Of a stretch of DNA of 64,000 nt, positions 46,841 through 58,840 are shown in pieces. The stretch is from Natronosalvus vescus. GTDB taxonomy: Archaea; Halobacteriota; Halobacteria; Halobacteriales; Natrialbaceae. The stretch is taken from the NCBI RefSeq assembly GCF_023973145.1, contig NZ_CP099546.1:2170001-2234000 (forward strand), in the 5' to 3' direction. Position 1 is the first letter of the stretch, and the number at the start of each line of letters is the position of its first letter. The translations under genes and the position numbers were made by a program. The notes under the pieces are model-generated. The model saw nothing but the letters and a program-made list of their open reading frames with translations, was not told where the DNA came from and did not search any database.

Positions 46841-46941
46841 TCGGAGATGACCGCGACGGACTGGTTTGCCGCAACGCGTGCTATCGCTCCCCTCGAGCGA
46901 TTTCGCCTCTCGCCACGTCCACTTTCACTCCGGTGGCGGCA

Positions 46942-46950
46942 GTTTAAATA
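46942..46950 (+). promoter_or_regulatory. TATA-like box of the rpa3 operon
   Basis: GTTTAAATA centred 26 nt before the ATG of a short leader ORF at 46972 and 63 nt before rpa3, so the transcript should start at or just before the leader ORF. Confidence 0.65.
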
Positions 46951-46971: not shown

Positions 46972-47004
46972 ATGCCTCCCATGGATACACAAGAGGAGGC
47001 GTGA
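46972..47004 (+). promoter_or_regulatory. 10-codon leader ORF carrying the rpa3 ribosome binding site
   Basis: ATG at 46972 opens a frame that reads MPPMDTQEEA and stops at 47002-47004, four bases before the rpa3 ATG. Its codons GAG-GAG-GCG contain GGAGG at 46995-46999, a Shine-Dalgarno sequence 9 bases before rpa3. The TATA box places the transcription start at about this ATG, so the leader could be translated without a leader sequence and then feed ribosomes to rpa3. Confidence 0.45.
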
Positions 47005-47008
47005 TCCG

Positions 47009-47938
47009 ATGAGCGACGTACGCCAACACGCAGAAGACATACACGCGCAGTTTTCAGACCACATCGACGTCGACGTCGACGACGTCGCGGAACGACTCAG
47101 CACCCTCGTCGACGAGTACAAAGTGCCGATGGACGAGGCGCGCCGTTCCGTCACGACGCACTACCTCGACGCGGCCGGCCTCGAGCGCGAGGACATCTCG
47201 AGCGGCTCGAGCGAACGCGCCCAGATCGAGGACGTCGACGAACCCGAGGAGTGGATCGACCTCCGCGCCAAGGTCATCGAACTCTGGGAGCCCCGCAGCG
47301 ACTCCGTTGCACAGGTCGGCCTCCTGGGAGATCCGACGGGGACGATCAAGTTCACCAAGTGGGCCAAATCCGACCTCCCGAGCCTCGAGGAGGGCGGCGT
47401 TTACGACCTCCGGAACGTCGTCACCGACGAGTACCAGGGCCGGTACTCGGTGAAACTCAACTCGACGACGGTCGTCGAGGAACTGGACGAAGACATCGAA
47501 GTCGGCGACGACACCTCCGAGATCGAGGGAGCACTCGTCGACATGCAGAGCGGGAGCGGCCTGATCAAACGCTGCCCCGAGGAGGGCTGTACCTACGTCC
47601 TCCAGAACGGCCGCTGTCCCGACCACGGCGAGGTCGAAGGCGAGTTCGACCTCCGCATCAAGGGCGTCGTCGACGACGGGATCGACGCCCACGAGGTCAT
47701 CTTCGACGCCGAGGCCACCGAGGGGCTGACCGGGATCAGCCTCGAGGAGGCAAAGGAGATGGCGATGGACGCCCTCGATACGACCATCGTCGCCGACGAG
47801 ATCCGCGACCGGATCGTCGGCACCTACTACCGCATCGAAGGGCCGACGTTCGGCCGCTACGTCCTCGCGGACGAGGTCGAGGAACTCGACGGGCCGGTCG
47901 ATGGCGAGGAACTGCTGATCAAAGCGAGGTCGATGTAA
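47009..47938 (+). CDS. rpa3: Replication protein A (RPA3-type, OB fold with zinc finger)
   Basis: Single-strand-DNA-binding protein for replication and repair. At 309 residues with one central OB fold and a zinc finger it matches haloarchaeal RPA3, not the longer three-OB RPA1. An N-terminal helical segment (1-65) is followed by the OB region (about 82-165: WIDLRAKVIELWEP, VAQVGLLGDPTGTIKFTKW, YDLRNVVTDEYQGRYSVKL). The zinc site is C189, C194, C203 and H206 (CPEEGC ... CPDHG). The C-terminal part is alpha/beta. The gene is followed with no gap by its partner. In Haloferax the rpa3 operon is important for DNA repair. Confidence 0.92.
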   Translation: MSDVRQHAEDIHAQFSDHIDVDVDDVAERLSTLVDEYKVPMDEARRSVTTHYLDAAGLEREDISSGSSERAQIEDVDEPEEWIDLRAKVIELWEPRSDSVAQVGLLGDPTGTIKFTKWAKSDLPSLEEGGVYDLRNVVTDEYQGRYSVKLNSTTVVEELDEDIEVGDDTSEIEGALVDMQSGSGLIKRCPEEGCTYVLQNGRCPDHGEVEGEFDLRIKGVVDDGIDAHEVIFDAEATEGLTGISLEEAKEMAMDALDTTIVADEIRDRIVGTYYRIEGPTFGRYVLADEVEELDGPVDGEELLIKARSM

Positions 47939-48565
47939 ATGTCTCAGACGCAACTCACCCGCGAAGTCGCAAAGCGCGTCTTCGCCTCGGAATTCAACGA
48001 TTCGACGTACGCGTTCAAGGAGTCGGACGACGAGCGCGCACCGAACTACGCCCTGTTGCCGACCGGCGACCGCGCCAACCGCGTGTTCTTCGTCGGCACC
48101 CTCACCGAAACCGAAGACGTCGGCGAGGAGAGCGAGTACTGGCGCGGCCGCGTCGTCGACCCGACGGGGACGTTCTTCGTCTACGCCGGCCAGTACCAGC
48201 CCGAAGCCGCCGCCGTGCTCCGGGACACCGAACCGCCGGCGTACGTCGCCATCGTCGGCAAACCGCGCACCTACGAGACCGACGACGGCACCGTCAACGT
48301 CTCCGTGCGACCCGAATCGATCGCCGTGGTCGACGAGGCCACCCGCGACCGCTGGGTCGTCGAGTGCGCCGACCGCACCCTCGAGCGCATCGAGGCGTTC
48401 ACGGAGTGGGAAGCCGAGCAGGAGGCCCCCGAAAGCGGCTCCGTCGCGCCGACCAACGAGTACGCCCAGATGGCTCACGAGCGGTACGATTTGCCCGTCG
48501 AAAATTACCGCCGTGACGTGATTCAGGCCTTAGAGAGCCTCGAGGAGCTCGAGGCCTCGGCCTGA
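47939..48565 (+). CDS. rpap3: RPA-associated protein (RPAP3-like)
   Basis: A 208-residue OB-fold protein (COG3390-type) that partners with RPA. Text: REVAKRVFASEFNDSTYAFKESDDERAPNYALLPTGDRANRVFFVGTLTE, YWRGRVVDPTGTFFVYAGQYQPEAAAVL, PPAYVAIVGKPRTYETDDGTVNVSVRPESI. Its ATG begins on the base right after the rpa3 stop codon, so the two are surely co-translated. In Haloferax the matching pair acts together in single-strand DNA binding and repair. Confidence 0.92.
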   Translation: MSQTQLTREVAKRVFASEFNDSTYAFKESDDERAPNYALLPTGDRANRVFFVGTLTETEDVGEESEYWRGRVVDPTGTFFVYAGQYQPEAAAVLRDTEPPAYVAIVGKPRTYETDDGTVNVSVRPESIAVVDEATRDRWVVECADRTLERIEAFTEWEAEQEAPESGSVAPTNEYAQMAHERYDLPVENYRRDVIQALESLEELEASA

Positions 48566-48679
48566 CGACCGTTCGGGCGCTCTGTCATCTCGCACCACAC
48601 CGTTTTTGACCCATTGTCAAGGATGTCGGCTCGTGTAATCGCGCGTTGCCGATCGTGACCGATGAGCGCTGTGCGAGCC

Positions 48680-48688
48680 CTTTATGTA
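48680..48688 (+). promoter_or_regulatory. TATA-like box of the 48712 gene
   Basis: CTTTATGTA centred 28 nt before the ATG at 48712; it supports the short start. Confidence 0.5.
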
Positions 48689-48711
48689 GACCGGGTTTGA
48701 AAACTCCACCA

Positions 48712-48876
48712 ATGAGCACCGACGAAACGCTATTCAGCGGTGAAAACGAGGACGCGATTCGGAAAGCCATGTACATCATGCTCGCCTGGATTCTGGTGGT
48801 CGTCGCTGCCGGCATCGCCCTGGTCGTCTTTCGCGATGCGTTCAGCGGCGTGTTCACCCTCCTTGGCCTGTTTTAA
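48712..48876 (+). CDS. Small single-helix membrane protein (54 residues)
   Basis: MSTDETLFSGENEDAIRKAMYIMLAWILVVVAAGIALVVFRDAFSGVF has an acidic soluble N-terminus and one long membrane helix, then a second short hydrophobic end. A TATA box 28 nt upstream and halophile-type acidic start support a real gene. The function is unknown; it could be a small subunit of a membrane complex. Confidence 0.65.
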   Translation: MSTDETLFSGENEDAIRKAMYIMLAWILVVVAAGIALVVFRDAFSGVFTLLGLF

Positions 48877-49115
48877 CGGCGTCTACTGACACGGATCGAC
48901 GAAGGTGGTGGGTCGTGCGAGTGTAATCGACCGAGCGGCTCGATTGTGCCGACATTTCAATCCGCGTTCGGACGTCCCCGGGGTGGATCGAACCGTGTAC
49001 GACGAATCCACCCACAGCCCACGCGGTGTCGTCGACCCGCCCGGCGACACACCGTTCTCGATGAACCGTCGGGTCGACGTCTCGCTACGTGTGACTCGAG
49101 CGTCTGTCGAGCCCG

Positions 49116-49268
49116 TCACAGCGTCCGGTATCGGACGAACAGATAGATGATGACGAAGACGAATGCGCTGGCGAAGAGGTACTCGCCCAGCGAGAGTGCA
49201 TAGACCAGCGCGCCCGCATTGAGCGCGATGCCGAACAGATAGATTGGGGCCAGTCGCTCCGTGTTCAC
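49116..49268 (-). CDS. Small membrane protein (50 residues, GTG start)
   Basis: Reading leftward from a GTG at 49268: VNTERLAPIYLFGIALNAGALVYALSLGEYLF followed by a second helix and ending RYRTL. It has two hydrophobic helices with a short loop, the layout of haloarchaeal small membrane proteins. A TGA lies two codons upstream, so GTG is the only reasonable start. The start overlaps the stop of a 19-residue ORF upstream (GTGA), which argues for coupled translation. The function is unknown. Confidence 0.62.
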   Translation of the reverse strand: MNTERLAPIYLFGIALNAGALVYALSLGEYLFASAFVFVIIYLFVRYRTL

Positions 49269-49324
49269 GCGTCATCACCGCCGCGTCGCTTCCATCGAGT
49301 GAGTGATTCCATCTCTGGATTCAT
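49265..49324 (-). CDS. Possible 19-residue peptide upstream of the 49268 gene
   Basis: ATG 49324 opens MNPEMESLTRWKRRGGDDA, whose TGA overlaps the GTG of the following membrane protein gene (GTGA). It may be a leader peptide or just a chance frame; only the overlap supports it. Confidence 0.3.
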   Translation of the reverse strand: MNPEMESLTRWKRRGGDDA

Positions 49325-49415
49325 TGATCGATATCGGTGCGGAACCACCGTGAATCCGTCGCTCTCGGCTGTCGACTCGGTACGTTCGTGGGTACGTCTG
49401 GCACCATTATATCGC

Positions 49416-49426
49416 CTATAAATTTA
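49416..49426 (+). promoter_or_regulatory. TATA-like box of the 49451 gene
   Basis: CTATAAATTTA centred 30 nt before the ATG at 49451, in a locally AT-rich patch. Confidence 0.65.
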
Positions 49427-49450
49427 CCCGAACGTCCGAAACACGAGGCT

Positions 49451-50041
49451 ATGTCCGAACGCACACACTCGAGAACGTCGTCGACGGCGCTCCCGCTGAA
49501 AGAAGGTGCACTCGGGGGTGTCGGCGCGTTCGTCGCCGGCTACGTCCTCACCTACCTGCTCGTCATGGTGGATTCGGAACTAGAGTACACCGACGAGTCC
49601 TCGGCGTTCGAGCTGATCGGCACCGTGTTCTACAACGCGCATTTCGTCGACGCGGAGTTCGTCTTCGCCTCGGGAACGGTGTTCGAGGGGACGCGGCGAC
49701 TCAACATCATCGCCGAAGAGAGTACCCAGTTCCCCGAACCGGTGTTTTACCTCGTGCCGGTCGCCATCCTGTTCGGCGTCGGGGCACTGATCGCGCACCG
49801 ATCGCTTCCGGCGGCGGCGACCGGCGTCGAAGGGGCGAAAGCGGGTGCCTCGGTGGTCGTCGGCTACCTTCCACTCGCCGTCGTCGGCAGCGTCCTCTTC
49901 GAGGCGACCGCCGAGTTCGAGATTCTGGGCGAAACGATCAGGTCGACGTTCGGCCCCGACATGTTGATGTCCATCATCTTCGTCGGGCTCGTGTTCCCGC
50001 TGGTTCTGGGCGCTGCCGGCGGCTTCCTGGCTCGTCGGTAG
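49451..50041 (+). CDS. Haloarchaeal four-helix membrane protein
   Basis: A 196-residue membrane protein. Hydrophobic segments: LGGVGAFVAGYVLTYLLVMV, VFYLVPVAILFGVGALIAHRSL, GASVVVGYLPLAVVGSVLF and LMSIIFVGLVFPLVLGAAGGFLARR. Between helices 1 and 2 a loop of about 70 residues (DSELEYTDESSAFELIGTVFYNAHFVDAEFVF) is acidic and probably outside the cell. The family is common in haloarchaea and its function is unknown to me. The TATA box fixes the ATG at 49451. Confidence 0.7.
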   Translation: MSERTHSRTSSTALPLKEGALGGVGAFVAGYVLTYLLVMVDSELEYTDESSAFELIGTVFYNAHFVDAEFVFASGTVFEGTRRLNIIAEESTQFPEPVFYLVPVAILFGVGALIAHRSLPAAATGVEGAKAGASVVVGYLPLAVVGSVLFEATAEFEILGETIRSTFGPDMLMSIIFVGLVFPLVLGAAGGFLARR

Positions 50042-50179
50042 TCGCCGGATCTCGTCTGTGCCTCGAGTATCGGATACTCGTCGGTGCCTGGGACTTGGTC
50101 GAAGTGAGGCCGGCGGATTCACAACGATTCGGAGCGAAACGACGATGTCCACTGCGAACGCAGGTACGGACACCAGACC

Positions 50180-50665
50180 ATGACGTCCGGCCGTATCCGC
50201 GCGATCCACATCGCCCCCGAACAGGGCGCGCCACCCGAGTCACGTGCGCGCGTCAAGGCGGTCGCCGACGCCGGGCTCGAGGGCGACCGCTACTTTCACT
50301 CCTCGGGTACGTTCGCCGATCGGGAGGGGAGCGACCTCACGCTGATCGAATCAGAAGTCCTCGAGGCGGTCGAACGCGACTGCGACCTCGCGCTCGAACC
50401 CGGCGTCCACCGCCGAAACGTGACGACCCAGGGGGTCGCGTTGAACCACCTCGTCGATCGTCGCTTCCGCATCGGCGAGGCGGTCTGTGTCGGCACGGAA
50501 CGCTGTGAACCGTGTTCGTACCTCGAGTCTCACCTCGAGCAACGTGGCGTCCGCGAGGCGCTGGTTCACCGGGGTGGGCTCAGAGCCCGGATCCTCGAGG
50601 GTGGCGTGATCGAGATGGGTGATCCGATCGACGTGCTCGAGCCATCAGGCCAACAGGACGAGTAG
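50180..50665 (+). CDS. MOSC-domain protein
   Basis: A 161-residue MOSC (molybdenum cofactor sulfurase C-terminal) domain protein. Family text: KAVADAGLEGDRYFHSSGTF, GSDLTLIESEVLEAVERD, LEPGVHRRNVTTQGVALNHLVDRRFRIGEAVCVGTERCEPCSYLE. The conserved cysteine is in the ERCEPC motif. Stand-alone MOSC proteins carry sulfur or bind Mo-cofactor for molybdoenzymes such as YiiM-type hydroxylamine-reducing proteins. No other Mo gene is near, and the next gene starts 65 bases downstream with its own likely promoter. Confidence 0.87.
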   Translation: MTSGRIRAIHIAPEQGAPPESRARVKAVADAGLEGDRYFHSSGTFADREGSDLTLIESEVLEAVERDCDLALEPGVHRRNVTTQGVALNHLVDRRFRIGEAVCVGTERCEPCSYLESHLEQRGVREALVHRGGLRARILEGGVIEMGDPIDVLEPSGQQDE

Positions 50666-50730
50666 TACGAACGCCGAACGACGATTCCGAAGTAGAAACG
50701 CATAGATTCGGCCAGTCCTTTCTCTCGCGT

Positions 50731-51525
50731 ATGAACGAGCCAGGCGTGCAGGTGCTCATGGATCAGTCGACGCTCGAGGCTCGCGTCGAGGCGAGCGAGG
50801 TACCCGACTGGGTTCGGGCGCACTACGAAAGCTTCACCGAGGGGTTGCTCGGGACGCGAAACGACAGTCCATTTCCCTGTCACTTTGGCGTCGAGTCAGT
50901 TCGAAAGGGGTGGCCGCTGTACACCGCCGTCGAGTCGATGACCGACAAGGATGCGTTGTTCGCCCTCGGTGAAACCTTACTCGAGTACCTCGAGGTGTAC
51001 GACGACCACAGCGAGCAGGCCTCCCTCGTCACCTTTTTCAAACCGCCCGAGCGCGAGCTTCGCGAGCGCGAGTATCACGAGGCGCTGTGGCACATTCTCC
51101 AGGTGCTCCACGCTCACGACCCCGAACCCTGGCCAGATGACATCCCGACCGATCCAGACACCAGTACGTGGGAGTTCTGTTTCGGCGGTGAAGCGCTCTT
51201 TCCCACCTGCCGGGCACCATTTTACGACACGCGGAAGAGTCGATACTGCCCGATCGGTCTCGAGATCACCTTCCAGCCGCGGACGCTGTTCGACGGGATC
51301 ACCGCCGACACCGACGCCGGGCAACGCGCCCGCGAGATTATCCAGGGACGCCTCGAGGAGTACGACGGCGTCTGTCCTCACGCTGACCTCGGGGACTGGG
51401 GCGTCGAGGGCGACCGCGAGTGGCCGCAGTACATGCTCTCTTCGGACGAGTCACAGGCACCTTCGGAGTGCCCGATGCGAGTGACTCGTACGCACCCGAA
51501 GGGATCGGTCGTCATCGGCGACTGA
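50731..51525 (+). CDS. YqcI/YcgG family protein
   Basis: A 264-residue protein of the YqcI/YcgG family. Characteristic text: DSPFPCHFGVESVRKGWPLYTAVES, FFKPPERELREREYHEALWHILQVLHAHDPEPWP, WEFCFGGEALFPTCRAPFYDTRKSRYCPIGLEITFQPR and the C-terminal PQYMLSSDES. Bacterial members are of uncertain function, with some linked to heme or N-oxygenation chemistry (related to the FrbG/HO-like proteins, from memory). Several conserved His/Cys residues suggest a metal site. ATG 50731 is used; ATG 50758 is possible. Confidence 0.82.
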   Translation: MNEPGVQVLMDQSTLEARVEASEVPDWVRAHYESFTEGLLGTRNDSPFPCHFGVESVRKGWPLYTAVESMTDKDALFALGETLLEYLEVYDDHSEQASLVTFFKPPERELREREYHEALWHILQVLHAHDPEPWPDDIPTDPDTSTWEFCFGGEALFPTCRAPFYDTRKSRYCPIGLEITFQPRTLFDGITADTDAGQRAREIIQGRLEEYDGVCPHADLGDWGVEGDREWPQYMLSSDESQAPSECPMRVTRTHPKGSVVIGD

Positions 51526-51574
51526 TCTCGCTCGACGGTTCGGGGCATCGCCACGGCAGGTGTATTCTGGACTC

Positions 51575-51961
51575 ATGGTGGGTGTCTATCGGCCTCGAGA
51601 CGGGCAGCATATCAGCGTTGAAGCTGTACAGGACGAGCTATTCATCCCCTTACTCGAGAGTGGGGATATGCCCTTCACGACATCTACGTCGGCTTCGCTC
51701 CCAACGCAAACGATCCACGAACCAAACGTGGGGCGATTCCTCGTCGTCGTCGACACCCTCCCGGCGACCCTCGATGACGTGTCCGTCGCCGTCGGCTCGC
51801 GAACGGTTCGCGTCGAGGTCGGCGGTTCGATAGGATGCGTACACGAAGTCGAACCGCCCTCACCCAAGATGATTTTCGGGGACGAGCGTCGGGCCTGGTA
51901 TCATAACGGCGTCCTCACGGTAGCCGTCGAAACGGTGCACTGCGGACGAGCGCTCGAGTAG
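51575..51961 (+). CDS. HSP20-like fold protein of unknown function
   Basis: A 128-residue protein. The C-terminal 90 residues (VGRFLVVVDTLPATLDDVSVAVGSRTVRVEVGG ... YHNGVLTVAVET) have the order of an alpha-crystallin/HSP20 fold: a strand pair, an acidic loop and the closing NGVLTV motif. This is close to haloarchaeal DUF7127-type proteins. The IXI-like tail of true small heat-shock proteins is absent. Start ATG 51575 (GTG 51560 adds five residues). It converges on the copper ATPase gene. Confidence 0.65.
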   Translation: MVGVYRPRDGQHISVEAVQDELFIPLLESGDMPFTTSTSASLPTQTIHEPNVGRFLVVVDTLPATLDDVSVAVGSRTVRVEVGGSIGCVHEVEPPSPKMIFGDERRAWYHNGVLTVAVETVHCGRALE

Positions 51962-52003
51962 CGCGAAAGGCGAGCATCGGTCACCCGCTGACGTTCAACT
52001 CCG

Positions 52004-54466
52004 TTACAGCGACCGCGAAGAGTTGAGCACCACGAGCGTGCTGCTCGTCGCCATAGCAACCGCCGCGAGTAACGGGTTGAGGAACCCGGCGACGGCCAGC
52101 GGGATGGCGATCGCGTTGTAGACGAACGCCCAGGCGAGGTTCTGTCTGATCCGCCGGTGAGTGGCGCTCGCGACGGCGAACGTCTCGGCAACCGACTCGA
52201 GGTCGTCGGAGACGATCACCGCGTCGGCGGCGTCGGTGGCCAGTTGCGTCCCGCTCCCCATGGCGATCCCGACGTCGGCAGCCGCCAGGGCGGGGGCGTC
52301 GTTGCTGCCGTCGCCGACCATCGCCACCGTCCCGCGCGAGCGAAGTCGTCGGACGGTTTCGGCTTTGGCTTCCGGCGGGACGCCAGCAAACACCCGGTCG
52401 ACGCCATCGACAGCCCTGAACCGATCGGCAGCGGCGCCCTCGTCGCCCGTGATGACGATGACCTCCCGGCCCGCCGACAGCGTTTCGACGGCCGACTCCC
52501 ACTCCGCTCGCGGTGCGTCTCCGACGACGATCACGCCGCGAGCAGCCCCCTCCCAGCCGACGACGACCGGGACGTCGCCGTCAGCTCTGGCCCGTTCTAT
52601 CGTCTTCTCGAAGTCCTCCGGGATCTCCCACTCGTTCTCGTCGAAGTGGTCGGGATGGCCGACGAGTACGCGGGTTCCATCGGGGAACTCGTCGTCGACG
52701 ACCATGCCAGCGACGCTTCGGGCCGTCCGCTCGAAGGTCTCGGTCGCCGCTGCCGTTGTGCCCGGCATCGTGTCGCTGTGCGTGTCTCCTTCGAGCCCCT
52801 GTTTGCTCGCCTTGGCGATTGCCGCCGCGATCGGGTGCTCGGAGAGCCGTTCGACCGCGGCCGCGCGCTCGAGCACGGCGTCGGGATCGTCGCCGACGAC
52901 CGCCTCGACCGACATCGAGCCTTCCGTGAGCGTGCCGGTTTTGTCGAAGGCGACGACATCGACGCCGGGGGCGTCTTCGAAGATGCTCTCGGCAGCGACG
53001 ACGATGTTGCGCGCGGCCGCCGACTGCACACCTGACGCGATTGCCAGCGGCGTCGCCAGACCCAGTGCGCAGGGACAGGAGACGATCAACACGGTGAGGC
53101 CGACGAGGAGGGCTGCCGTCGGGCTCGAGCCGGTCGCGAGCATGACCGCCGTGGCGATGGCGGCGACCGCGATCACCAGCGGGACGAAGATCGTCGCGAG
53201 TTTGTCGGCGAGTCGCTGCACACCGGGGCGAGCACTCTGAATCCGCCAGAGCAGGTCGACGAGACGATCGAGGGTGCTCTCGGCGTCCGGCCCGACCTCG
53301 ATTACGAGCGGGGCGTCCGTGACGACGGTTCCGCCGCGAACGGCGTCGTCGACGGCTTTCTCGACGGGGAGCGATTCTCCAGTCATCAGCGACTCGTCGA
53401 CGGCGGCTTCCCCCTCGAGGACGGTGCCATCGAGCGGGACGCGCTCGCCGGGTTTGACGAGGAGCGACTCGCCAGATTCGACGTCGGAGACCGGGACGCG
53501 CTCGCCGGTGTCGTGGCGGCGCGCCTCCGCGACCTGTTGTTCGGTTAGGTCGGCGAGCAGGCCCGCTGCTCGGCGTTTGACCACGCCTTCGTAGTAGGTG
53601 CCGCCGGTGACGACGAGGATGATCGCCACGGAGACGTCGAAGTAGAGATCCGTCCGCCCCTCGAGCATCGCCAGGGTACTGTAGGCGTAGGCGGCCAGCG
53701 CAGCCAGGGAGACGAGCAGATCCATGTTCGGCATCCCCGCCCGCAGGCTCACGTACGCCCCCCGGAGTATCGGGAACCCGGTGTAAAACAGGACGAACGA
53801 CGTCATCAGCCAGATGTTCGCGAAGATGTAGAGCTGGTCGAACCGACCGAACTCGACGACGGGATCGTAGCCGAAGTAGGTGGGGTACAGAAAGAGCACG
53901 TACCACATCATCACCATCATGCCGAACAGGCCGCCGCCGGCGAGGAACTTCGCGAGCGCCTGCTCCTCGCCGTCGCTGCCCCGCCCGACGCCGCGTTCGC
54001 GGGCGTTGTAGCCGGCACCGGTCAGCGTCTCACGGAGGTCGTCCTCCTCCAGCCGGTCGGGGTCGTAGACGAGCCTGACGGTGTCGCTCGCGTAGCTGGC
54101 CTCGGCGGCGTGGACACCCTCGACGCTGATCGCTCGCCCCTCGAGAAACGCCTCGCAGGTGGCGCAGTGCATCCCGTCGACGGTGAAGAAAGCGTCCTCG
54201 CCGTCAACAGTCTCGAGGTCGTCGCCCTCGGTCTCGCCGTCGATCGTCGCTCGGACGTCGCGCGCCGTCGACTCCTCGAGGTCGCCGAGTGCGTGATGTA
54301 CCTGCAGGCAGCCCTGACAGCAAAATTGCCCGCTAACGTCGTCGCCGGTGACCGGGTCGGCCGGAAGCGGGAGGCCACAGAGGGAACAACCGTCCTCGTT
54401 CGTACTCGTGGAGTCGCCGCTGGAGGTCACGCTCGAACCGGCGTCCGCGGATGGTGGCGACGTCAT
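52004..54466 (-). CDS. Copper-transporting P1B-type ATPase (CcoI/FixI-like)
   Basis: An 820-residue heavy-metal ATPase. Order: an N-terminal metal-binding segment with C27, C30, C49, C50 and C53 (the treble-clef-like type seen in FixI/CcoI and CopA2), an HMA domain with C101-x-x-C104 in GMHCATCEAF, eight membrane helices with the CPC motif (C464, C466), phosphorylation site D508 in DKTGT, the SEHPIA motif and GDGSNDAPAL hinge. The N-terminal pattern and the adjacent oxidase point to copper export for oxidase assembly, not detoxification. It is the third gene of the operon that starts at 55527, 21 bases after the SafE-like gene. Confidence 0.9.
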   Translation of the reverse strand: MTSPPSADAGSSVTSSGDSTSTNEDGCSLCGLPLPADPVTGDDVSGQFCCQGCLQVHHALGDLEESTARDVRATIDGETEGDDLETVDGEDAFFTVDGMHCATCEAFLEGRAISVEGVHAAEASYASDTVRLVYDPDRLEEDDLRETLTGAGYNARERGVGRGSDGEEQALAKFLAGGGLFGMMVMMWYVLFLYPTYFGYDPVVEFGRFDQLYIFANIWLMTSFVLFYTGFPILRGAYVSLRAGMPNMDLLVSLAALAAYAYSTLAMLEGRTDLYFDVSVAIILVVTGGTYYEGVVKRRAAGLLADLTEQQVAEARRHDTGERVPVSDVESGESLLVKPGERVPLDGTVLEGEAAVDESLMTGESLPVEKAVDDAVRGGTVVTDAPLVIEVGPDAESTLDRLVDLLWRIQSARPGVQRLADKLATIFVPLVIAVAAIATAVMLATGSSPTAALLVGLTVLIVSCPCALGLATPLAIASGVQSAAARNIVVAAESIFEDAPGVDVVAFDKTGTLTEGSMSVEAVVGDDPDAVLERAAAVERLSEHPIAAAIAKASKQGLEGDTHSDTMPGTTAAATETFERTARSVAGMVVDDEFPDGTRVLVGHPDHFDENEWEIPEDFEKTIERARADGDVPVVVGWEGAARGVIVVGDAPRAEWESAVETLSAGREVIVITGDEGAAADRFRAVDGVDRVFAGVPPEAKAETVRRLRSRGTVAMVGDGSNDAPALAAADVGIAMGSGTQLATDAADAVIVSDDLESVAETFAVASATHRRIRQNLAWAFVYNAIAIPLAVAGFLNPLLAAVAMATSSTLVVLNSSRSL

Positions 54467-54487
54467 GGGTCGATTACGGGGAGGCGG

Positions 54488-55306
54488 TTACAGCGGTTGA
54501 TAGAACGGAATGTGCGGGTGGGGAAGATGGATCCCCAGAAGCATCAGTCCGTGCTGGAGCGGGACGTACCCGAGAACGAGAAAGCCGGCACCGAGTGCGC
54601 GATGAAGTCGAACGCGGGTCGTCATCGACAGCGAGCCCAGCAGTGTCCCGTAGGCGAACAACGTCGGAATCGTGCCGAGGCCGAGGGCCCCGAGCGAGAA
54701 CGCTCCCCGGATCGGATCGCCGAGCGCGAAGGCGTACAGGTAGGCGGGATAGATGATGGGGCACGGGAGCAGGCCGTGAATCGCCCCAAGTCCGACGATT
54801 CCGGGGGAGTTCGCCAGCCGGTCGACGCGACTCACGAGGACGCTCGAGAGCCGGGCGAACAGCGGGCCGACGAGGGGGAGTCCGTGCGGGATTCCGGGTT
54901 GTCCGCGGAGGTAGTAGGCGCCGCTGGCGATAATCGCGATGCCGACGAGGATCCCGGCCACGCCCCGGATCGGGTCGCCGACGGTCGAGACGGCATCGGC
55001 AGAGGTGTACGCGAGCGCTCCGACGAGGCCGAACAGGCCACCGATCGCGGTGTAACTCGCCGCACGCCCCACGTTGAACAGCGCGTGCTGGCGCACCTCG
55101 GTCAGCGAGAGGGTGTCGGGTCTCGAGGTACTCGATTTGGTGATTCGGTCGGCGTAGGTAGTCACGAGCGGGCCACACATCCCCAGACAGTGTGCCCCGG
55201 CGAGAATGCCGACCAGGAAGAAGACCAGCAGGTCGACGTGGCCGCTCGCCACGGTGGTTCCATGATCGTGTGCTAGAACGACTGGTGGGAGCCAGAGACC
55301 ACCCAT
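54488..55306 (-). CDS. SafE/DsbD-like membrane transporter
   Basis: A 272-residue membrane protein of the sulfite exporter TauE/SafE or DsbD_2 family. Text: VFFLVGILAGAHCLGMCGPLVTTYADRI (residues about 28-55, with the conserved cysteine pair), FNVGRAASYTAIGGLFGLVGAL, IHGLLPCPIIYPAYLYAFALGD and HRALGAGFLVLGYVPLQHGL. Such proteins often neighbour ccoI in bacterial cbb3 loci, where they are thought to help copper or thiol delivery. The start is ATG 55306, two bases after the upstream stop, and the ATPase follows 21 bases downstream. A His-rich N-terminus (AHDHGTT) and C-terminus (HLPHPHIPF) may bind copper. Confidence 0.85.
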   Translation of the reverse strand: MGGLWLPPVVLAHDHGTTVASGHVDLLVFFLVGILAGAHCLGMCGPLVTTYADRITKSSTSRPDTLSLTEVRQHALFNVGRAASYTAIGGLFGLVGALAYTSADAVSTVGDPIRGVAGILVGIAIIASGAYYLRGQPGIPHGLPLVGPLFARLSSVLVSRVDRLANSPGIVGLGAIHGLLPCPIIYPAYLYAFALGDPIRGAFSLGALGLGTIPTLFAYGTLLGSLSMTTRVRLHRALGAGFLVLGYVPLQHGLMLLGIHLPHPHIPFYQPL

Positions 55307-55308
55307 CC

Positions 55309-55527
55309 CTACCGGGCACCGGAACCGTCATCGGTTGTCTGGTGACCGTGCTCATCACCTGCAATCGGTCCAGTTGCGACGTACAGCGCAGCGACGATAA
55401 TAACGACGTTGATGACCGTCACGACACCGGCCAGACTCGCACCACCGAACCCGTACCAGAGGGCGGGAGCGATCGCCAGCAGTCCGAGTGCAGCTACCCA
55501 GCGAACCGGCAGTCCGTCGATACTCAT
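55309..55527 (-). CDS. Small membrane protein, first gene of the copper-delivery operon
   Basis: A 72-residue protein: MSIDGLPVRWVAALGLLAIAPALWYG, then a second helix (GVVTVINVVIIVAALYVATGPI) and a His-containing soluble end (DEHGHQTTDDG). It begins an operon with the SafE-like and ATPase genes (two-base gap to the next). The TATA box at 55551 supports the ATG at 55527. Its role is unknown; it could be a small assembly factor or subunit. Confidence 0.72.
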   Translation of the reverse strand: MSIDGLPVRWVAALGLLAIAPALWYGFGGASLAGVVTVINVVIIVAALYVATGPIAGDEHGHQTTDDGSGAR

Positions 55528-55550
55528 GGCACAGTGTCGGTGCCTCGAGT

Positions 55551-55559
55551 GCATAAAGG
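55551..55559 (-). promoter_or_regulatory. TATA-like box of the copper-delivery operon
   Basis: On the minus strand it reads CCTTTATGC, centred 28 nt before the ATG at 55527. It lies nine bases from the palindrome at 55568-55586. Confidence 0.6.
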
Positions 55560-55567
55560 TCGATCCA

Positions 55568-55586
55568 GTTCCCAGGTCGTGGGAAC
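55568..55586. promoter_or_regulatory. Palindromic operator, copy 1
   Basis: GTTCCCA-GGTCG-TGGGAAC, perfect 7-bp arms with a 5-base centre, between the divergent copper-delivery operon and the oxidase operon. It ends 41 bases before the oxidase ATG at 55627 and starts 41 bases after 55527, so it could control both. Copies 2 and 3 are at 58518 and 58912. Confidence 0.75.
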
Positions 55587-55626
55587 GGGTAGAATGTTGA
55601 GTAGGCAACCGTCGCTAGCACCAGGT

Positions 55627-55827
55627 ATGTCATCGGACGCTGTGGAACTAGAGCCCCAGATTAGTCACGACGACGAACTGGAACGCCAGATTGGTCACGA
55701 CGAGTTCGATCCCGTCGGAACGCTCGCGTTAATCGGACTGTACTTTCTGATTCTGGTCTTAATGTGGTTGTTCATGTACTTCGTCGAATTCCTCGGTAAC
55801 GATCCGACAGTGGTGGGGATGGTATGA
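55627..55827 (+). CDS. cbaD: Small subunit of the ba3-type oxidase (CbaD-like)
   Basis: A 66-residue single-helix protein: an acidic N-terminus (SSDAVELEPQISHDDELERQIGHDEFDP) and one membrane helix (TLALIGLYFLILVLMWLFMYFVEFLG). It is the first gene of the oxidase operon and overlaps subunit II by ATGA. In Natronomonas the ba3 oxidase has two such small subunits; the name is assigned by position. Palindrome copy 1 lies just upstream of the weak promoter. Confidence 0.78.
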   Translation: MSSDAVELEPQISHDDELERQIGHDEFDPVGTLALIGLYFLILVLMWLFMYFVEFLGNDPTVVGMV

Positions 55828-56708
55828 ACATTCACGCCTACGAGAAACTCTGGTTGATCGCGGCGTTGCTCTTGATCGTGGGCTTCGTCGCGACGATCAC
55901 GTACGGGGCCGTCGGGTTGGGCATCGCGATGGTGGACGACTCCGAAGAGACGCTCGATCCGAACGCGCTCGACGAACACGAACGCTTCGGTGACCTCGGC
56001 GTCCACCAGACGGGTGAAAACCAGTACGACGTCAACGTTCGAGCCTACCAGTTCAACTACGACCCCGGGACGACGGCCGTCCACGACCCGATCGTCCTTC
56101 CCGAAAATAGCGAAGTGACCTTCTACGTCACCAGCTCCGACGTCATTCACAGCTTCAGCCTCGTCGGAACGAACGTGAACTCGATGGTCATCCCCGGTGA
56201 GGTATCCGCGATGACCGTCGAGTTCGGTGACCCCGACGAGTACGGGATCCTCTGTAACGAGTACTGTGGCTCCGGCCACCACGCCATGGAGGGAATCGTT
56301 CAGGTCGTCCCCGAAGAAGACTTCCACCTCTTCTCGATCGAGTCCGTCGACGCTCACGAATCCGTCGAACCCGGAGACGACCTCGAGCTGACGGCCACCG
56401 TGGCCAACGATGCGCTCGCGGAAGAGACGGCGGCGGTCGACCTCGAGATCGGCGACGAGACCTACGAGAACGAGGTCACGGTCGACGCCGAGTCGACGGG
56501 CACGGTCACGTTCACCGTCGACACGGGCAGCCTCGACACCGACGATCTGGAGGCACTCGACTGGACGGTTACCGTCGAATCGGGTTCGCCGGCAACGTTC
56601 GATGACGGCACCGAAAGCGGCAGCGTCGACCTCGAGGGACAGGGCGAGGATGAGACTGGAACGGACGATGATGGAACCGCAACCGAAGACGAGGAGGGAG
56701 ACGAATGA
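55824..56708 (+). CDS. cbaB: Heme-copper oxidase subunit II (CuA, ba3 type)
   Basis: A 294-residue subunit that holds the CuA centre. An N-terminal helix (KLWLIAALLLIVGFVATITYGAV) is followed by the cupredoxin domain. The ligands H109, C144, E146, C148, H152 and M155 (DVIHSF and CNEYCGSGHHAM) match the Thermus ba3 spacing exactly. After residue 165 there is an extra 130-residue region that looks like an external beta-sandwich (LFSIESVDAHESVEPGDDLELTATV ...) ending in an acidic tail; this is not in the Thermus protein. It overlaps cbaD and cbaA by four bases each. Confidence 0.92.
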   Translation: MNIHAYEKLWLIAALLLIVGFVATITYGAVGLGIAMVDDSEETLDPNALDEHERFGDLGVHQTGENQYDVNVRAYQFNYDPGTTAVHDPIVLPENSEVTFYVTSSDVIHSFSLVGTNVNSMVIPGEVSAMTVEFGDPDEYGILCNEYCGSGHHAMEGIVQVVPEEDFHLFSIESVDAHESVEPGDDLELTATVANDALAEETAAVDLEIGDETYENEVTVDAESTGTVTFTVDTGSLDTDDLEALDWTVTVESGSPATFDDGTESGSVDLEGQGEDETGTDDDGTATEDEEGDE

Positions 56709-58435
56709 GTGCCTACATCGATAGATTCCCGGCAGAAGCAAAAGTAATTAGATCGGCGTTTTACGCTTCGTTCATCGCGCTCGCATTGGGGGCGGCGTTC
56801 GGGCTGATCCAGACGCTCCACCGGACGGACTTCGTCCGGATCATTCCGTCGGATATGTACTACACCGTGCTGACAGCCCACGGGGTGTTCATGGTCGTGA
56901 CGTTCACGATCTTCTTCCTCGTCGCCGTGTTCACCTGGGCGGTGACGACCAGCCTCGATCGAGAGGTCGAGGACATTCGATTTACCTGGTCGTGGTACGG
57001 CCTGATGTCACTCGGGACGCTGTTCGCCGGCGTCGCGATCCTGGCCGGGTTCACCGACGCCGTCGACATGAGTGCGGACGTTCTGTTTACGTTCTACGCA
57101 CCCCTGCAGGCCCATCCGCTGTTTTACATCGGACTGGTACTATTCGTCATCGGGACGTGGCTCGCCGGGGCCGACTGGTTCCGCTCGTGGTGGGCCTGGA
57201 AACAGGAGAACCCCGACGAACGAATTCCGCTGCCGACGTTCATGGTCTTGACGACGATGATCATGTGGTACCTCGCGACCATCGGCGTCGCGATTTCGAT
57301 CATCGTCTTCCTGCTGCCGTGGTCGCTCGGCCTCATCGACACGGTCAACCCGACGCTCACGCGGACGCTCTTCTGGTTCTGGGGCCACCCAGTCGTCTAC
57401 TTCTGGCTGATGCCTGCGTACATGATGTGGTACCTGTTGTTACCGACGGTGTCCGGCGGTCGCCTGTTCAGCGACCCGCTCGCCCGCGTCGTGTTCGTCC
57501 TCTTCTTGCTGCTGTCGACGCCCGTCGGCATCCACCACCAGTACCTCGATCCCGGGATCGCTGAAGGGTTCAAGTTCATCGCGATGACGAACACCATGTT
57601 CCTGCTCTTGCCAAGCCTGCTGACGGCGTTTACCGTCGTCGCGAGCATGGAACACGGAGCTCGCCAGCGCGGCGGCGAAGGGTATTTCGGCTGGCTCGGC
57701 GCACTGCCGTGGCGTGACCCGGTCTTTACGGGCATGGCGCTCGCCGGGCTGATGTTCGCCGCCGGCGGGTTCTCCGGGATGATCAACGCCGGGATGAACA
57801 TCAACTACCTCGTCCACAACTCGCTGTGGGTGCCCGGCCACTTCCACCTCACCGTCGGCACCGCCGTCGCCCTGACGTTCATGGCCGTCTCCTACTGGTT
57901 CATCCCGCAGGTGACCGGCCGGGAACTCGTGAGCAAACCGATCGCACTCGTCCAGGTCGTCCTGTGGTTCGTCGGGATGACCTTCATGTCGAACGCAATG
58001 CACCGGGGCGGCCTCCTCGGCATTCCGCGACGGACTGCTGAACCGGAGTACACCGGCTTCGAGTTCGAAACTGCCGTCGGCACCATCGGCGAACTCAACG
58101 CTCAGATCGCTCTCGGTGGCGTCTTGCTCACCCTCTCGACCGTGTTGTTCCTCGGGAACATGCTGATCACCGCGTTCAACGACGAGGCGGTCACCCTCGA
58201 GGACAACACCATCCCGAAACCGCTCTCGGGGCCGGAGGATGCACCGCTCGTCCTCGACAACATCAAGCTCTGGACGGCGATCGCTGTCGTACTCGTTATC
58301 CTCGCGTACACGCTGCCCCTCGCAGCCATCGTCGAACGAGGCGGTCTGTTCGGGCCCGGTGGTGACGCCTTCCCGATGATGATCGACCTCGTTCGAACGG
58401 GGCTGCTCGAGAGCCTGTCCGCGGTGACCGGCTGA
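56705..58435 (+). CDS. cbaA: Heme-copper oxidase subunit I (ba3 type, B family)
   Basis: The catalytic subunit that reduces oxygen to water and pumps protons. It is 576 residues with about 13 membrane helices. The active-site pattern matches B-family ba3 oxidases: H228 and Y232 (WGHPVVYFW, the cross-linked His-Tyr pair), H277 and H278 (GIHHQY) and H379/H381 (GHFHLTVG) for heme and CuB, with the same spacing as Thermus ba3. Overlaps cbaB by ATGA, so the first three genes form one operon. The donor is probably a halocyanin. Confidence 0.94.
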   Translation: MSAYIDRFPAEAKVIRSAFYASFIALALGAAFGLIQTLHRTDFVRIIPSDMYYTVLTAHGVFMVVTFTIFFLVAVFTWAVTTSLDREVEDIRFTWSWYGLMSLGTLFAGVAILAGFTDAVDMSADVLFTFYAPLQAHPLFYIGLVLFVIGTWLAGADWFRSWWAWKQENPDERIPLPTFMVLTTMIMWYLATIGVAISIIVFLLPWSLGLIDTVNPTLTRTLFWFWGHPVVYFWLMPAYMMWYLLLPTVSGGRLFSDPLARVVFVLFLLLSTPVGIHHQYLDPGIAEGFKFIAMTNTMFLLLPSLLTAFTVVASMEHGARQRGGEGYFGWLGALPWRDPVFTGMALAGLMFAAGGFSGMINAGMNINYLVHNSLWVPGHFHLTVGTAVALTFMAVSYWFIPQVTGRELVSKPIALVQVVLWFVGMTFMSNAMHRGGLLGIPRRTAEPEYTGFEFETAVGTIGELNAQIALGGVLLTLSTVLFLGNMLITAFNDEAVTLEDNTIPKPLSGPEDAPLVLDNIKLWTAIAVVLVILAYTLPLAAIVERGGLFGPGGDAFPMMIDLVRTGLLESLSAVTG

Positions 58436-58517
58436 TCGTCTCCTTTCGCGTCTTTCCTGTCGCTTCGCCTCTTTGTCGGCCGGACTCGTCCCTCGAGTGT
58501 CGATTTTCCAACCCCGG

Positions 58518-58536
58518 ATTCCCACGGCGTGGGAAT
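58518..58536. promoter_or_regulatory. Palindromic operator, copy 2
   Basis: ATTCCCA-CGGCG-TGGGAAT, perfect 7-bp arms (8 with the outer G/C pair). It lies 42 bases before the ATG of the leader ORF at 58578, almost the same distance as copy 1 to cbaD, so it should serve a promoter starting there. Confidence 0.75.
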
Positions 58537-58577
58537 CGGCGCGAGCGTACTTGGTCGGCCGCCTCGTCTCTGTCACC

Positions 58578-58643
58578 ATGAACCGACAGTCGTCATCCGG
58601 CGTTGGCATTTCCACGGCCGCTCGAACGGAGGTGAGCGGCTGA
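58578..58643 (+). CDS. Possible 21-residue leader peptide before the cbaE-like gene
   Basis: ATG 58578 opens MNRQSSSGVGISTAARTEVSG, ending at a TGA whose last base is the first base of the next ATG (TGATG). It contains GGAGGTG (58628-58634), a ribosome binding site eight bases before that ATG. The operator spacing suggests the transcript starts near 58578. It may be a translated leader that couples the small oxidase gene; the peptide has no recognisable family. Confidence 0.4.
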   Translation: MNRQSSSGVGISTAARTEVSG

Positions 58644-58840
58644 TGCGGATCTCGAGGGGAGCCCTGCTCGTGTTGTTGGCGTTCACCGTTCCAGTTCTCG
58701 TCGAACTCAGAACAGTACTCGGCTTCTTCGACATCGAGCTCTCGCTTACGGGCGTGCTGATCATCGGTGTCCTCGTCGTCGGTGGCATCCTCTTCTGGGC
58801 GACGTTCCCGGAGCGTGACCAGAGCACCGCCACGGCGTAA
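58643..58840 (+). CDS. cbaE: Small membrane subunit near the ba3 oxidase (CbaE-like)
   Basis: A 65-residue protein with two hydrophobic helices (ALLVLLAFTVPVLVELRTVLGFF and LTGVLIIGVLVVGGILFWATFP). It follows cbaA by 207 bases and is preceded by palindrome copy 2 and by a leader ORF that overlaps its start by one base. Position and size fit the small CbaE subunit of haloarchaeal ba3 oxidases; the name is by context only. Confidence 0.65.
   Translation: MRISRGALLVLLAFTVPVLVELRTVLGFFDIELSLTGVLIIGVLVVGGILFWATFPERDQSTATA

Follow-up and report, generated by a model that had tools for sequence, protein, structure and literature searches.

In a stretch of 64,000 nucleotides (nt) from the archaeon Natronosalvus vescus (contig NZ_CP099546.1, positions 2,170,001 to 2,234,000; here called the window, from a source genome of 3.84 Mb) we found what is very probably a conserved base-paired element in the leader of rpa3, the gene for replication factor A. 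The hairpin GYCTCC-loop-GGAGRC was recovered by pattern search in 113 of 116 rpa3 leaders across Halobacteriales, and it recurs before genes other than rpa3. Present at rpa3 in most sampled haloarchaea and absent from Rfam, it would be among the few structured cis-regulators in archaea. A preliminary description of the window had seen in this leader a leaderless mini-gene, an open reading frame (ORF) of 10 codons carrying the Shine-Dalgarno (SD) motif of rpa3, and had listed two similar sites further downstream. From the sequence comparisons we consider it reasonably likely that the first site is instead a 5'-terminal RNA hairpin controlling rpa3, and that sites 2 and 3 are separate, coupled fore-cistrons.

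A conserved hairpin in the rpa3 leader

The rpa3 locus comprises the following features:
46918 to 46933, plus strand: upstream element TCCACTTTCACTCCGG, found by a genome pattern search and matching the published haloarchaeal ultraviolet (UV) motif TTTCACTTTCA
46943 to 46950, plus strand: TATA box TTTAAATA of rpa3, its first T 29 nt before the ATG of the 10-codon ORF
46972 to 47004, plus strand: 10-codon ORF (MPPMDTQEEA, 33 nt), read from the sequence; family-wide its start is kept, its stop and frame are not
46974 to 46979, plus strand: 5' arm of the hairpin, GCCTCC, part of a conserved inverted repeat
46980 to 46994, plus strand: hairpin loop, with the order-wide consensus C-A-N-Y-G-A-A-A...
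46995 to 47000, plus strand: 3' arm of the hairpin, GGAGGC, which includes the GGAGG earlier called Shine-Dalgarno
47009 to 47938, plus strand: rpa3, replication factor A (NCBIfam NF005553, E 4e-147)
47939 to 48565, plus strand: second gene of the rpa3 operon, without a match in the family search; by its position we take it to encode the RPA3-associated protein

When the sequence was re-read, the positions given earlier for the ORF and the TATA box proved right, as did the GGAGG at 46995 to 46999 and the 9 nt that separate it from the rpa3 ATG at 47009. The GCCTCC/GGAGGC inverted repeat that surrounds this motif had gone unmentioned, and it is this repeat that proved to be the conserved feature.

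The gene rpa3 was present at E<=1e-70 in 188 of 195 genomes. The leader set comprised 36 Natrialbaceae and 80 further leaders, with at least one from most genera beyond that family, and was searched for G[CT]CT[CT][CT], a C-loop and [AG][AG]AG[AG]C shortly before rpa3. Only three of the 116 leaders were without the hairpin, L067 and L155 of genus g25 and L076 of f15. All 80 named GTDB loci showed the element, including those of Halobacterium, Haloarcula, Haladaptatus, Halorussus and Natronomonas, and it ended 7-13 nt before the rpa3 start codon. A covariance model, R1, matched 181 of the 195 genomes, 167 of them exactly once. A permissive listing in 13 genomes gave 12 matches at E<=1e-3, of which 10 abut rpa3, the other two being those of G010 and G011. 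Rfam had no match on the hairpin at E<=1, neither in the window stretch nor at the loci of six other leaders; its candidates, Guanidine-III (18.2 of 36 bits, inside rpa3) and Afu_254, were weak chance matches. Nor is the hairpin described in the open literature that we found on rpa3 leaders or haloarchaeal RNA motifs, which was accessible mostly as titles, abstract openings and passages.

Some further occurrences were seen in passing. Leader hairpins paired about 90 nt apart occur in L351 (G076:C36) and on contigs C36, C116 and C70 of G076, at least one pair standing before an rpa3 copy; the stretch contains an N, so that an assembly effect is possible. Two pattern scans of IMG/VR returned 14 stretches, none demonstrated as a leader (best R1 E 9e-5, L355); their contexts were not studied.

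In an alignment of 91 distinct rpa3 leaders (A1), 98.2% of cells were paired, a figure partly fixed by the search pattern, compared to 39.7-60.6% in slid controls; four of the eight pairs were invariant and two changed on both sides. The pairs were also counted in a pooled set of 121 unique elements, made up of pattern-found leaders, the named loci and 20 more. Pair 2 was TA in 62, CG in 54, TG in five and CA in none, and pair 6 was CG in 120 and TA in one. More than one type of pair 2 was found within each of the families f1, f4, f5 and f6. A C-G pair closing over a 1-nt bulge was kept in 87 of the 91 leaders of A1. The loop, 14-17 nt long at rpa3, was itself conserved: among the 121 elements it showed the leading C in all, the following A in 108, and G, A, A and A at positions 5-8 in 118, 116, 114 and 114, respectively. 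Single-sequence folding of the window leader gave -15.0 kcal/mol (z -3.56). Compensatory changes, as expected of a structured leader RNA, were thus seen at rpa3, and they were found in the non-rpa3 leaders described below as well.

The position of the promoter points to where the message begins. In 109 of the 113 hairpin leaders the first T of the TATA box lay 29-32 nt before the stem (24 at 29, 37 at 30, 47 at 31 and one at 32); of the remaining four, three had no box scoring 5 and one was not scored. With this spacing the message should begin at the stem. Further upstream, the UV-motif core CACTTYC was found in 103 hairpin leaders, in 83 of them at 54 nt from the stem, and a TTTCACTTTCA-like box upstream of the TATA box, as in UV-motif promoters, is present at rpa3. 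That motif was defined in Halobacterium at radA1, top6B, vng17 and vng280 (Boubriak et al. 2008, PMC2556686). Despite the near match upstream of the rpa3 TATA box, rpa3/rfa3 is not among the motif genes in the accessible parts of that report, which do not mention the hairpin either. Expression of rfa3 has been reported as UV-induced (PMC1224876) and as raised in radiation-resistant Halobacterium mutants (PMC5924565). The hairpin could explain how this repair operon is controlled, higher expression of which reportedly accompanies radiation resistance in Halobacterium (PMC5924565).

In G000 the UV motif was found 55-61 nt upstream of the leaderless-looking starts of five ORFs. Judged by their sequences, two of these would encode helicases, one of Lhr/DEAD type and one Hef-like; the other three are further ORFs. 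The genes with this box are a candidate haloarchaeal damage regulon. A UV-type box TTCACTTTCACNNCGG lies at a nearly constant distance before rpa3 (46918 to 46933) and before leaderless-looking starts of genes for helicases and zinc-finger-like proteins (L164, L165, L167, L176, L177).

The hairpin leader recurs before two other gene families

The leader is portable, as it stands, with the TATA spacing of rpa3, before the genes of two unrelated families located in defence-type islands. All 14 genomes with more than one R1 match were searched again. The extra matches were additional rpa3 copies and five non-rpa3 leaders (E 2e-6 to 2e-4). Two of these, L341 and L344, precede a protein of 341 amino acids (aa); the other three, L342, L343 and L345, precede proteins of about 290 aa, which match the PADLOC family 'TGT' (L345 3.5e-51, L342 5.1e-30). 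Weaker extra matches (E 0.013-0.049) at L346-L350 and L352 are, judged by context, probably due to chance; there was one more match, at G076:C76.

Homologues of the TGT-like gene were found in 56 of 392 genomes. An R1 match stood at the gene start in 16 of the 30 TGT-like loci returned, including all 12 of the closest (L367-L378, E 1.4e-7 to 0.47). The 341-aa gene had homologues in 21 of 392 genomes, and R1 matched in three of four close loci (L397, L398 and L400; not L399) and in none of 18 distant ones. Searches with the 341-aa protein in Pfam, PADLOC, NCBIfam and PHROGs gave nothing useful. In two of the distant homologues, L402 and L404, the UV box was present and no R1 hairpin match was found.

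A model-free search for stems was made in 34 leaders, 30 of TGT-like genes and four of the 341-aa gene. A stem score of at least 15 together with a GA[AG] loop was reached by 22 of the 34, compared to 5.8% of shuffles scored alike. The stems included GTCTCC, GTTCCC, GACTCC, GCCTCT and others, each with its matching partner (GTTCCC/GGGAAC, GACTCC/GGAGTC), and the loops were 13-18 nt long. Since some non-rpa3 stems have become GTTCCC/GGGAAC or GACTCC/GGAGTC, what is kept is the pairing and not the Shine-Dalgarno motif; on account of these 3' arms without such a motif we rejected SD sequestration as the function that is conserved. The TATA box lay 29-32 nt upstream of the stem in all high-scoring leaders but L392 and L400 (20 of 22), and L397 and L398 had the UV box at 54 nt from the stem, the distance found at rpa3.

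Two alignments were made from these leaders. Both omit L379, L380, L391, L393, L395, L396 and L399 (weak, misplaced or 5-bp stems) as well as L390 and L394 (no stem found), and L386 was added by hand; A5 keeps L388, L389 and L392, and A6 drops them, their hairpin lying inside the coding frame. In the 20 distinct rows of A6, four of six pairs changed on both sides and slid versions paired at 26.7-54.6%; the rows were selected for pairing, so that the 100% pairing of A6 is itself not evidence, and the shuffle control is. In the three dropped loci, which hold diverged TGT-like genes, the hairpin GATCCC/GGGATY lies within the N-terminal coding sequence (IPNENHQG-like).

The surroundings of these genes are of the kind seen in defence islands. 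In nine of ten TGT neighbourhoods the next gene encodes an acidic protein of 377-413 aa, which was DsbA-like by Pfam in L420, the one tested. The tenth is the L345 locus (L421), where the TGT-like gene with its hairpin leader is followed by a ThsB-type TIR protein (PF08937, 1.4e-17) and then by an 8xMP membrane protein. The gene was also present on nine plasmid records, annotated as hypothetical in all. TGT-like genes and their acidic neighbours form a candidate defence system, and in L426 and L427 GmrSD/HNH or HNH genes are found close to the 341-aa gene. The reuse of the leader by such putative defence genes suggests a common damage or infection signal. A conserved two-gene module was observed in L419, L420, L422-L425 and L430-L432: a TGT-like protein is encoded together with a long, acidic protein rich in Gly/Ala, frequently with TTG as start codon and an rpa3-type leader.

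Possible action of the hairpin and alternative explanations

Judging from the TATA spacing, transcription would start at the stem or within a few bases of it, and the first ~27 nt of the rpa3 message would form a 6-bp hairpin, the base pairing of which is shown by covariation. At 7-13 nt from the rpa3 start this hairpin would cover the ribosome landing site and hinder the ribosome. A trans-acting factor would then read the hairpin and its C-A-N-Y-G-A-A-A loop and set the rate of rpa3 translation; we postulate such a reader because the loop is conserved and because unrelated damage and defence genes reuse the leader. Control at the level of translation seems to us somewhat more plausible than control of RNA stability. 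A designed 5' hairpin that masks SD and AUG controls a reporter in Haloferax (PMC8241225). This synthetic theophylline riboswitch resembles the proposed element in being a 5' hairpin that controls translation in a haloarchaeon, and differs in being designed, ligand-driven and having the AUG within the structure.

The simplest candidate for the reader would be RPA3 or the RPA3 complex, acting on its own message when free of single-stranded DNA. We put this forward tentatively, and the sharing of the leader with other genes would fit any common reader. Single-strand binding proteins such as T4 gp32 repress their own translation. As in T4 gp32, a structured leader lies near the start of a gene for a single-strand binding protein; unlike there, the rpa3 hairpin is small and archaeal, and binding by RPA3 is putative. 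A further and rather unlikely extension is that the hairpin acts as a sensor of single-stranded DNA: free RPA3 bound to it would repress, and damage or a replicating virus would draw RPA3 to single-stranded DNA and turn on rpa3 and the defence genes together. This would amount to a tripwire built on titration of the host RPA, its defence genes being TGT with DsbA-like or ThsB-TIR/8xMP partners and the 341-aa gene beside GmrSD/HNH.

Several observations weigh against a regulatory RNA hairpin of this kind. Four of the eight pairs of A1 never vary. The outer T-G pair shows no covariation, with CA in 8 of 113 leaders where about 8 are expected from the column make-up. The arm pattern admits only Y in the 5' arm and R in the 3' arm at the varying places and the TGT set was chosen by pairing, so that part of the pairing percentages follows from the selection. 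In the other families the closing C-G pair with its 1-nt bulge is not a regular feature, and most TGT leaders showed no UV box. Mostly present at rpa3 in one copy per genome, the element is nevertheless not specific to that gene, as it also stands before TGT-like and 341-aa genes, and any reader would have to be common to these. SD motifs are reported not to drive de novo initiation at the 5' untranslated regions of Haloferax (PMC3986360), so that hiding one may do little, and the SD is unlikely to be what matters. Finally, all 36 Natrialbaceae leaders have an ATG or GTG at the ORF start, so that in this family the element may also serve leaderless initiation.

The hairpin might alternatively be a 5' stability cap against a 5'-to-3' nuclease, or a block on wasteful leaderless initiation at chance AUGs, with no specific reader. 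Its 5'-terminal position in all three gene families would suit such a role, as would the common ATG or GTG at the stem. Strong conservation of the loop, the small number of gene families that carry the element (a single match in 167 of the 181 matching genomes) and the tie to damage and defence genes speak against it, and we regard it as unlikely.

A little less probable still is that the palindrome is a DNA operator, at which a repressor dimer over the transcription start blocks rpa3 and the defence genes. Archaeal repressors often bind just after the TATA box, near the transcription start. The fixed distance after the TATA box would be explained in this way, and palindromes covary too. However, the spacing of the half-sites varies (loops of 14-17 nt at rpa3 and 13-18 nt in the other families), the loop is conserved too, TG is found among the mismatches and CA is not, and the half-sites differ between gene families. 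The loop varies in length, the intermediates seen are G-U and not C-A, and the stem sequence is not the same from one gene family to another; for these reasons we consider it likely that the element works as RNA and not as DNA.

For the 10-codon ORF itself the record in relatives is mixed. Its 33 nt are identical at every base in all eight Natronosalvus genomes. Across Natrialbaceae the start is ATG in 33 of 36 leaders and GTG in three, and the stem arms are fixed, pair 2 being C-G in 35 and T-G (G-U in RNA) in one, L035. The stop, in contrast, precedes rpa3 in 24 of the 36 leaders, the frame ends over the rpa3 ATG in three and runs on in nine, and three leaders (L039-L041) carry a frame-changing indel. 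Beyond Natrialbaceae, the position of the ORF start holds neither ATG, GTG nor TTG in 31 of 77 leaders and the frame varies, while the hairpin stays; a start at that position is in frame with the rpa3 start in 18 of the 77, and 14 of these 18 are open through. The conserved stop/start linkage that marks leaderless coupled short ORFs is thus lost at rpa3, where stop, frame and, outside the family, start all change. Coupling through the internal SD at site 1 therefore failed the test that its proposers had named, frameshifting indels in relatives, and the 10-codon ORF is probably incidental to the hairpin. That a ribosome starts leaderless at 46972, opens the hairpin, stops at 47004 and re-initiates at rpa3 through GGAGG is accordingly improbable: the TATA spacing, the ATG or GTG in all Natrialbaceae and the stop before rpa3 in two thirds of them would suit it, and the frames passing the rpa3 start, the indels and the hairpins without a start codon speak against it.

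Candidate fore-cistrons at two other sites

The preliminary description had proposed similar mini-ORFs before a cbaE-like gene (site 2) and, as a weaker case, near 49.3 kb (site 3). The features are:
49116 to 49268, minus strand: ORF for a 50-aa membrane protein, proposed coupling target at site 3
49265 to 49324, minus strand: 19-codon mini-ORF with a GTGA overlap at its end, read from the sequence
56705 to 58435, plus strand: cytochrome oxidase subunit I (Cox1); in most relatives its stop overlaps the small gene
58578 to 58643, plus strand: 21-codon mini-ORF, candidate fore-cistron, with SD GGAGGTG at 58628 to 58634, 8 nt before the ATG at 58643, and a TGATG overlap
58643 to 58840, plus strand: gene for a 65-aa small membrane protein ('cbaE-like'), proposed coupling target at site 2

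At site 2 re-reading bore out the coordinates, the GGAGGTG, its 8-nt spacing and the TGATG overlap, and at site 3 the 19 codons from 49324 to 49265 on the minus strand with their GTGA overlap with the 50-aa ORF.

A genome-wide test used 464 kb (the window and 20 further stretches), in which a crude gene caller gave 337 genes. Tested were the 274 starts whose upstream 60 nt held no gene on the same strand, with 1370 shuffled upstream sequences as control. A short ATG ORF overlapped the start in 25 of 274 cases, compared to 116 of 1370 shuffled ones (8.5%), so that a genome-wide mini-ORF device was rejected, and overlap together with an SD-like motif occurred in six of 274 versus four of 1370. 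None of the 274 starts combined overlap, an SD-like motif and a TATA score of at least 4 of 6; the idea that the pairing of a mini-ORF with an internal SD is a general device was therefore not borne out, and each site has to be judged by its conservation.

At site 2, 54 loci of the 65-aa gene (34 and 20) were compared. The Cox1 stop overlaps or just precedes the start of the small gene in most of them and Cox1 is not adjacent in 14, among these L085, which is cut by a contig end. An ATG ORF that is 14-21 codons long and terminates in TGATG is kept in 11 of these 14 loci and lacking in L113, L181 and L184; an SD-like motif accompanies it in 10 of the 11. Five of the 11 mini-ORF loci reach a TATA score of at least 4, and the score in this genome is only 3 of 6. 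For the 50-aa gene of site 3, 23 distinct loci were compared. An ATG mini-ORF, 12-32 codons long and with its end lying over the gene start, is present in 10 of them; nine of these 10 have an SD-like motif and six a TATA score of at least 4 at 25-29 nt, the score in this genome being again weak (3 of 6). The peptides differ among relatives at both sites; the stop/start overlap is kept in part of the relatives without conservation of the peptide.

A leaderless start may apply at site 1, where, as in several relatives, the TATA spacing fits it, and is supported only in part at sites 2 and 3. Coupling through the internal SD, lost at site 1, appears to hold at sites 2 and 3, where the overlap is kept while the peptides diverge and where Haloferax offers a precedent (PMC6728339). 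Attenuation by a peptide found no support at any site: in place of the conserved peptide with amino-acid runs expected of an amino-acid attenuator, the peptides diverge at all three.

Sites 2 and 3 would, on the Haloferax example, be short leaderless fore-cistrons whose ribosomes, after terminating, start anew on the overlapping small gene with the help of the internal SD, and by analogy they seem to be a known kind of arrangement in a new lineage. Termination-reinitiation at overlapping gene pairs occurs in Haloferax (Huber et al. 2019, PMC6728339); those pairs share the TGATG/ATGA overlap and the SD inside the upstream frame, but the upstream frame at sites 2 and 3 has 12-32 codons and is not a gene. 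In mycobacteria, 'coupled' leaderless short ORFs conserve the linkage and not the sequence (Shell et al. 2015, PMC4633059). They resemble sites 2 and 3 in the leaderless start, presumed at the latter, the stop sharing bases with the next start and the linkage without peptide conservation, whereas sites 2 and 3 are haloarchaeal and have an internal SD, and the mini-ORF of site 2 stands in for the oxidase gene, which in relatives itself overlaps the small gene. A synthetic bicistronic design in Corynebacterium (PMC10367133) likewise combines a leaderless fore-cistron and an SD motif serving the second cistron; sites 2 and 3 would be naturally occurring examples. From these two sites it would seem that leaderless fore-cistrons are in use in archaea as well as in mycobacteria.

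Less probable is that both are chance ORFs, their overlaps being left from a former upstream gene or due to ATGA/GTGA starts. The near-shuffled genome rate of short overlapping ORFs would agree with this, and at site 3 the stop is built into the ATGAA/GTGAA start; the retention of TGATG-ending ORFs where Cox1 is not adjacent, and the SD-like motifs and TATA scores of the 10 site-3 loci, argue against it. Among relatives at site 3, L234 and L236 have in-frame N-terminal extensions of the 50-aa gene and L225 a long upstream frame. In L224 a similar upstream sequence (GACGGATTGAGG) stands before the 50-aa gene with no mini-ORF, which provides a natural contrast.

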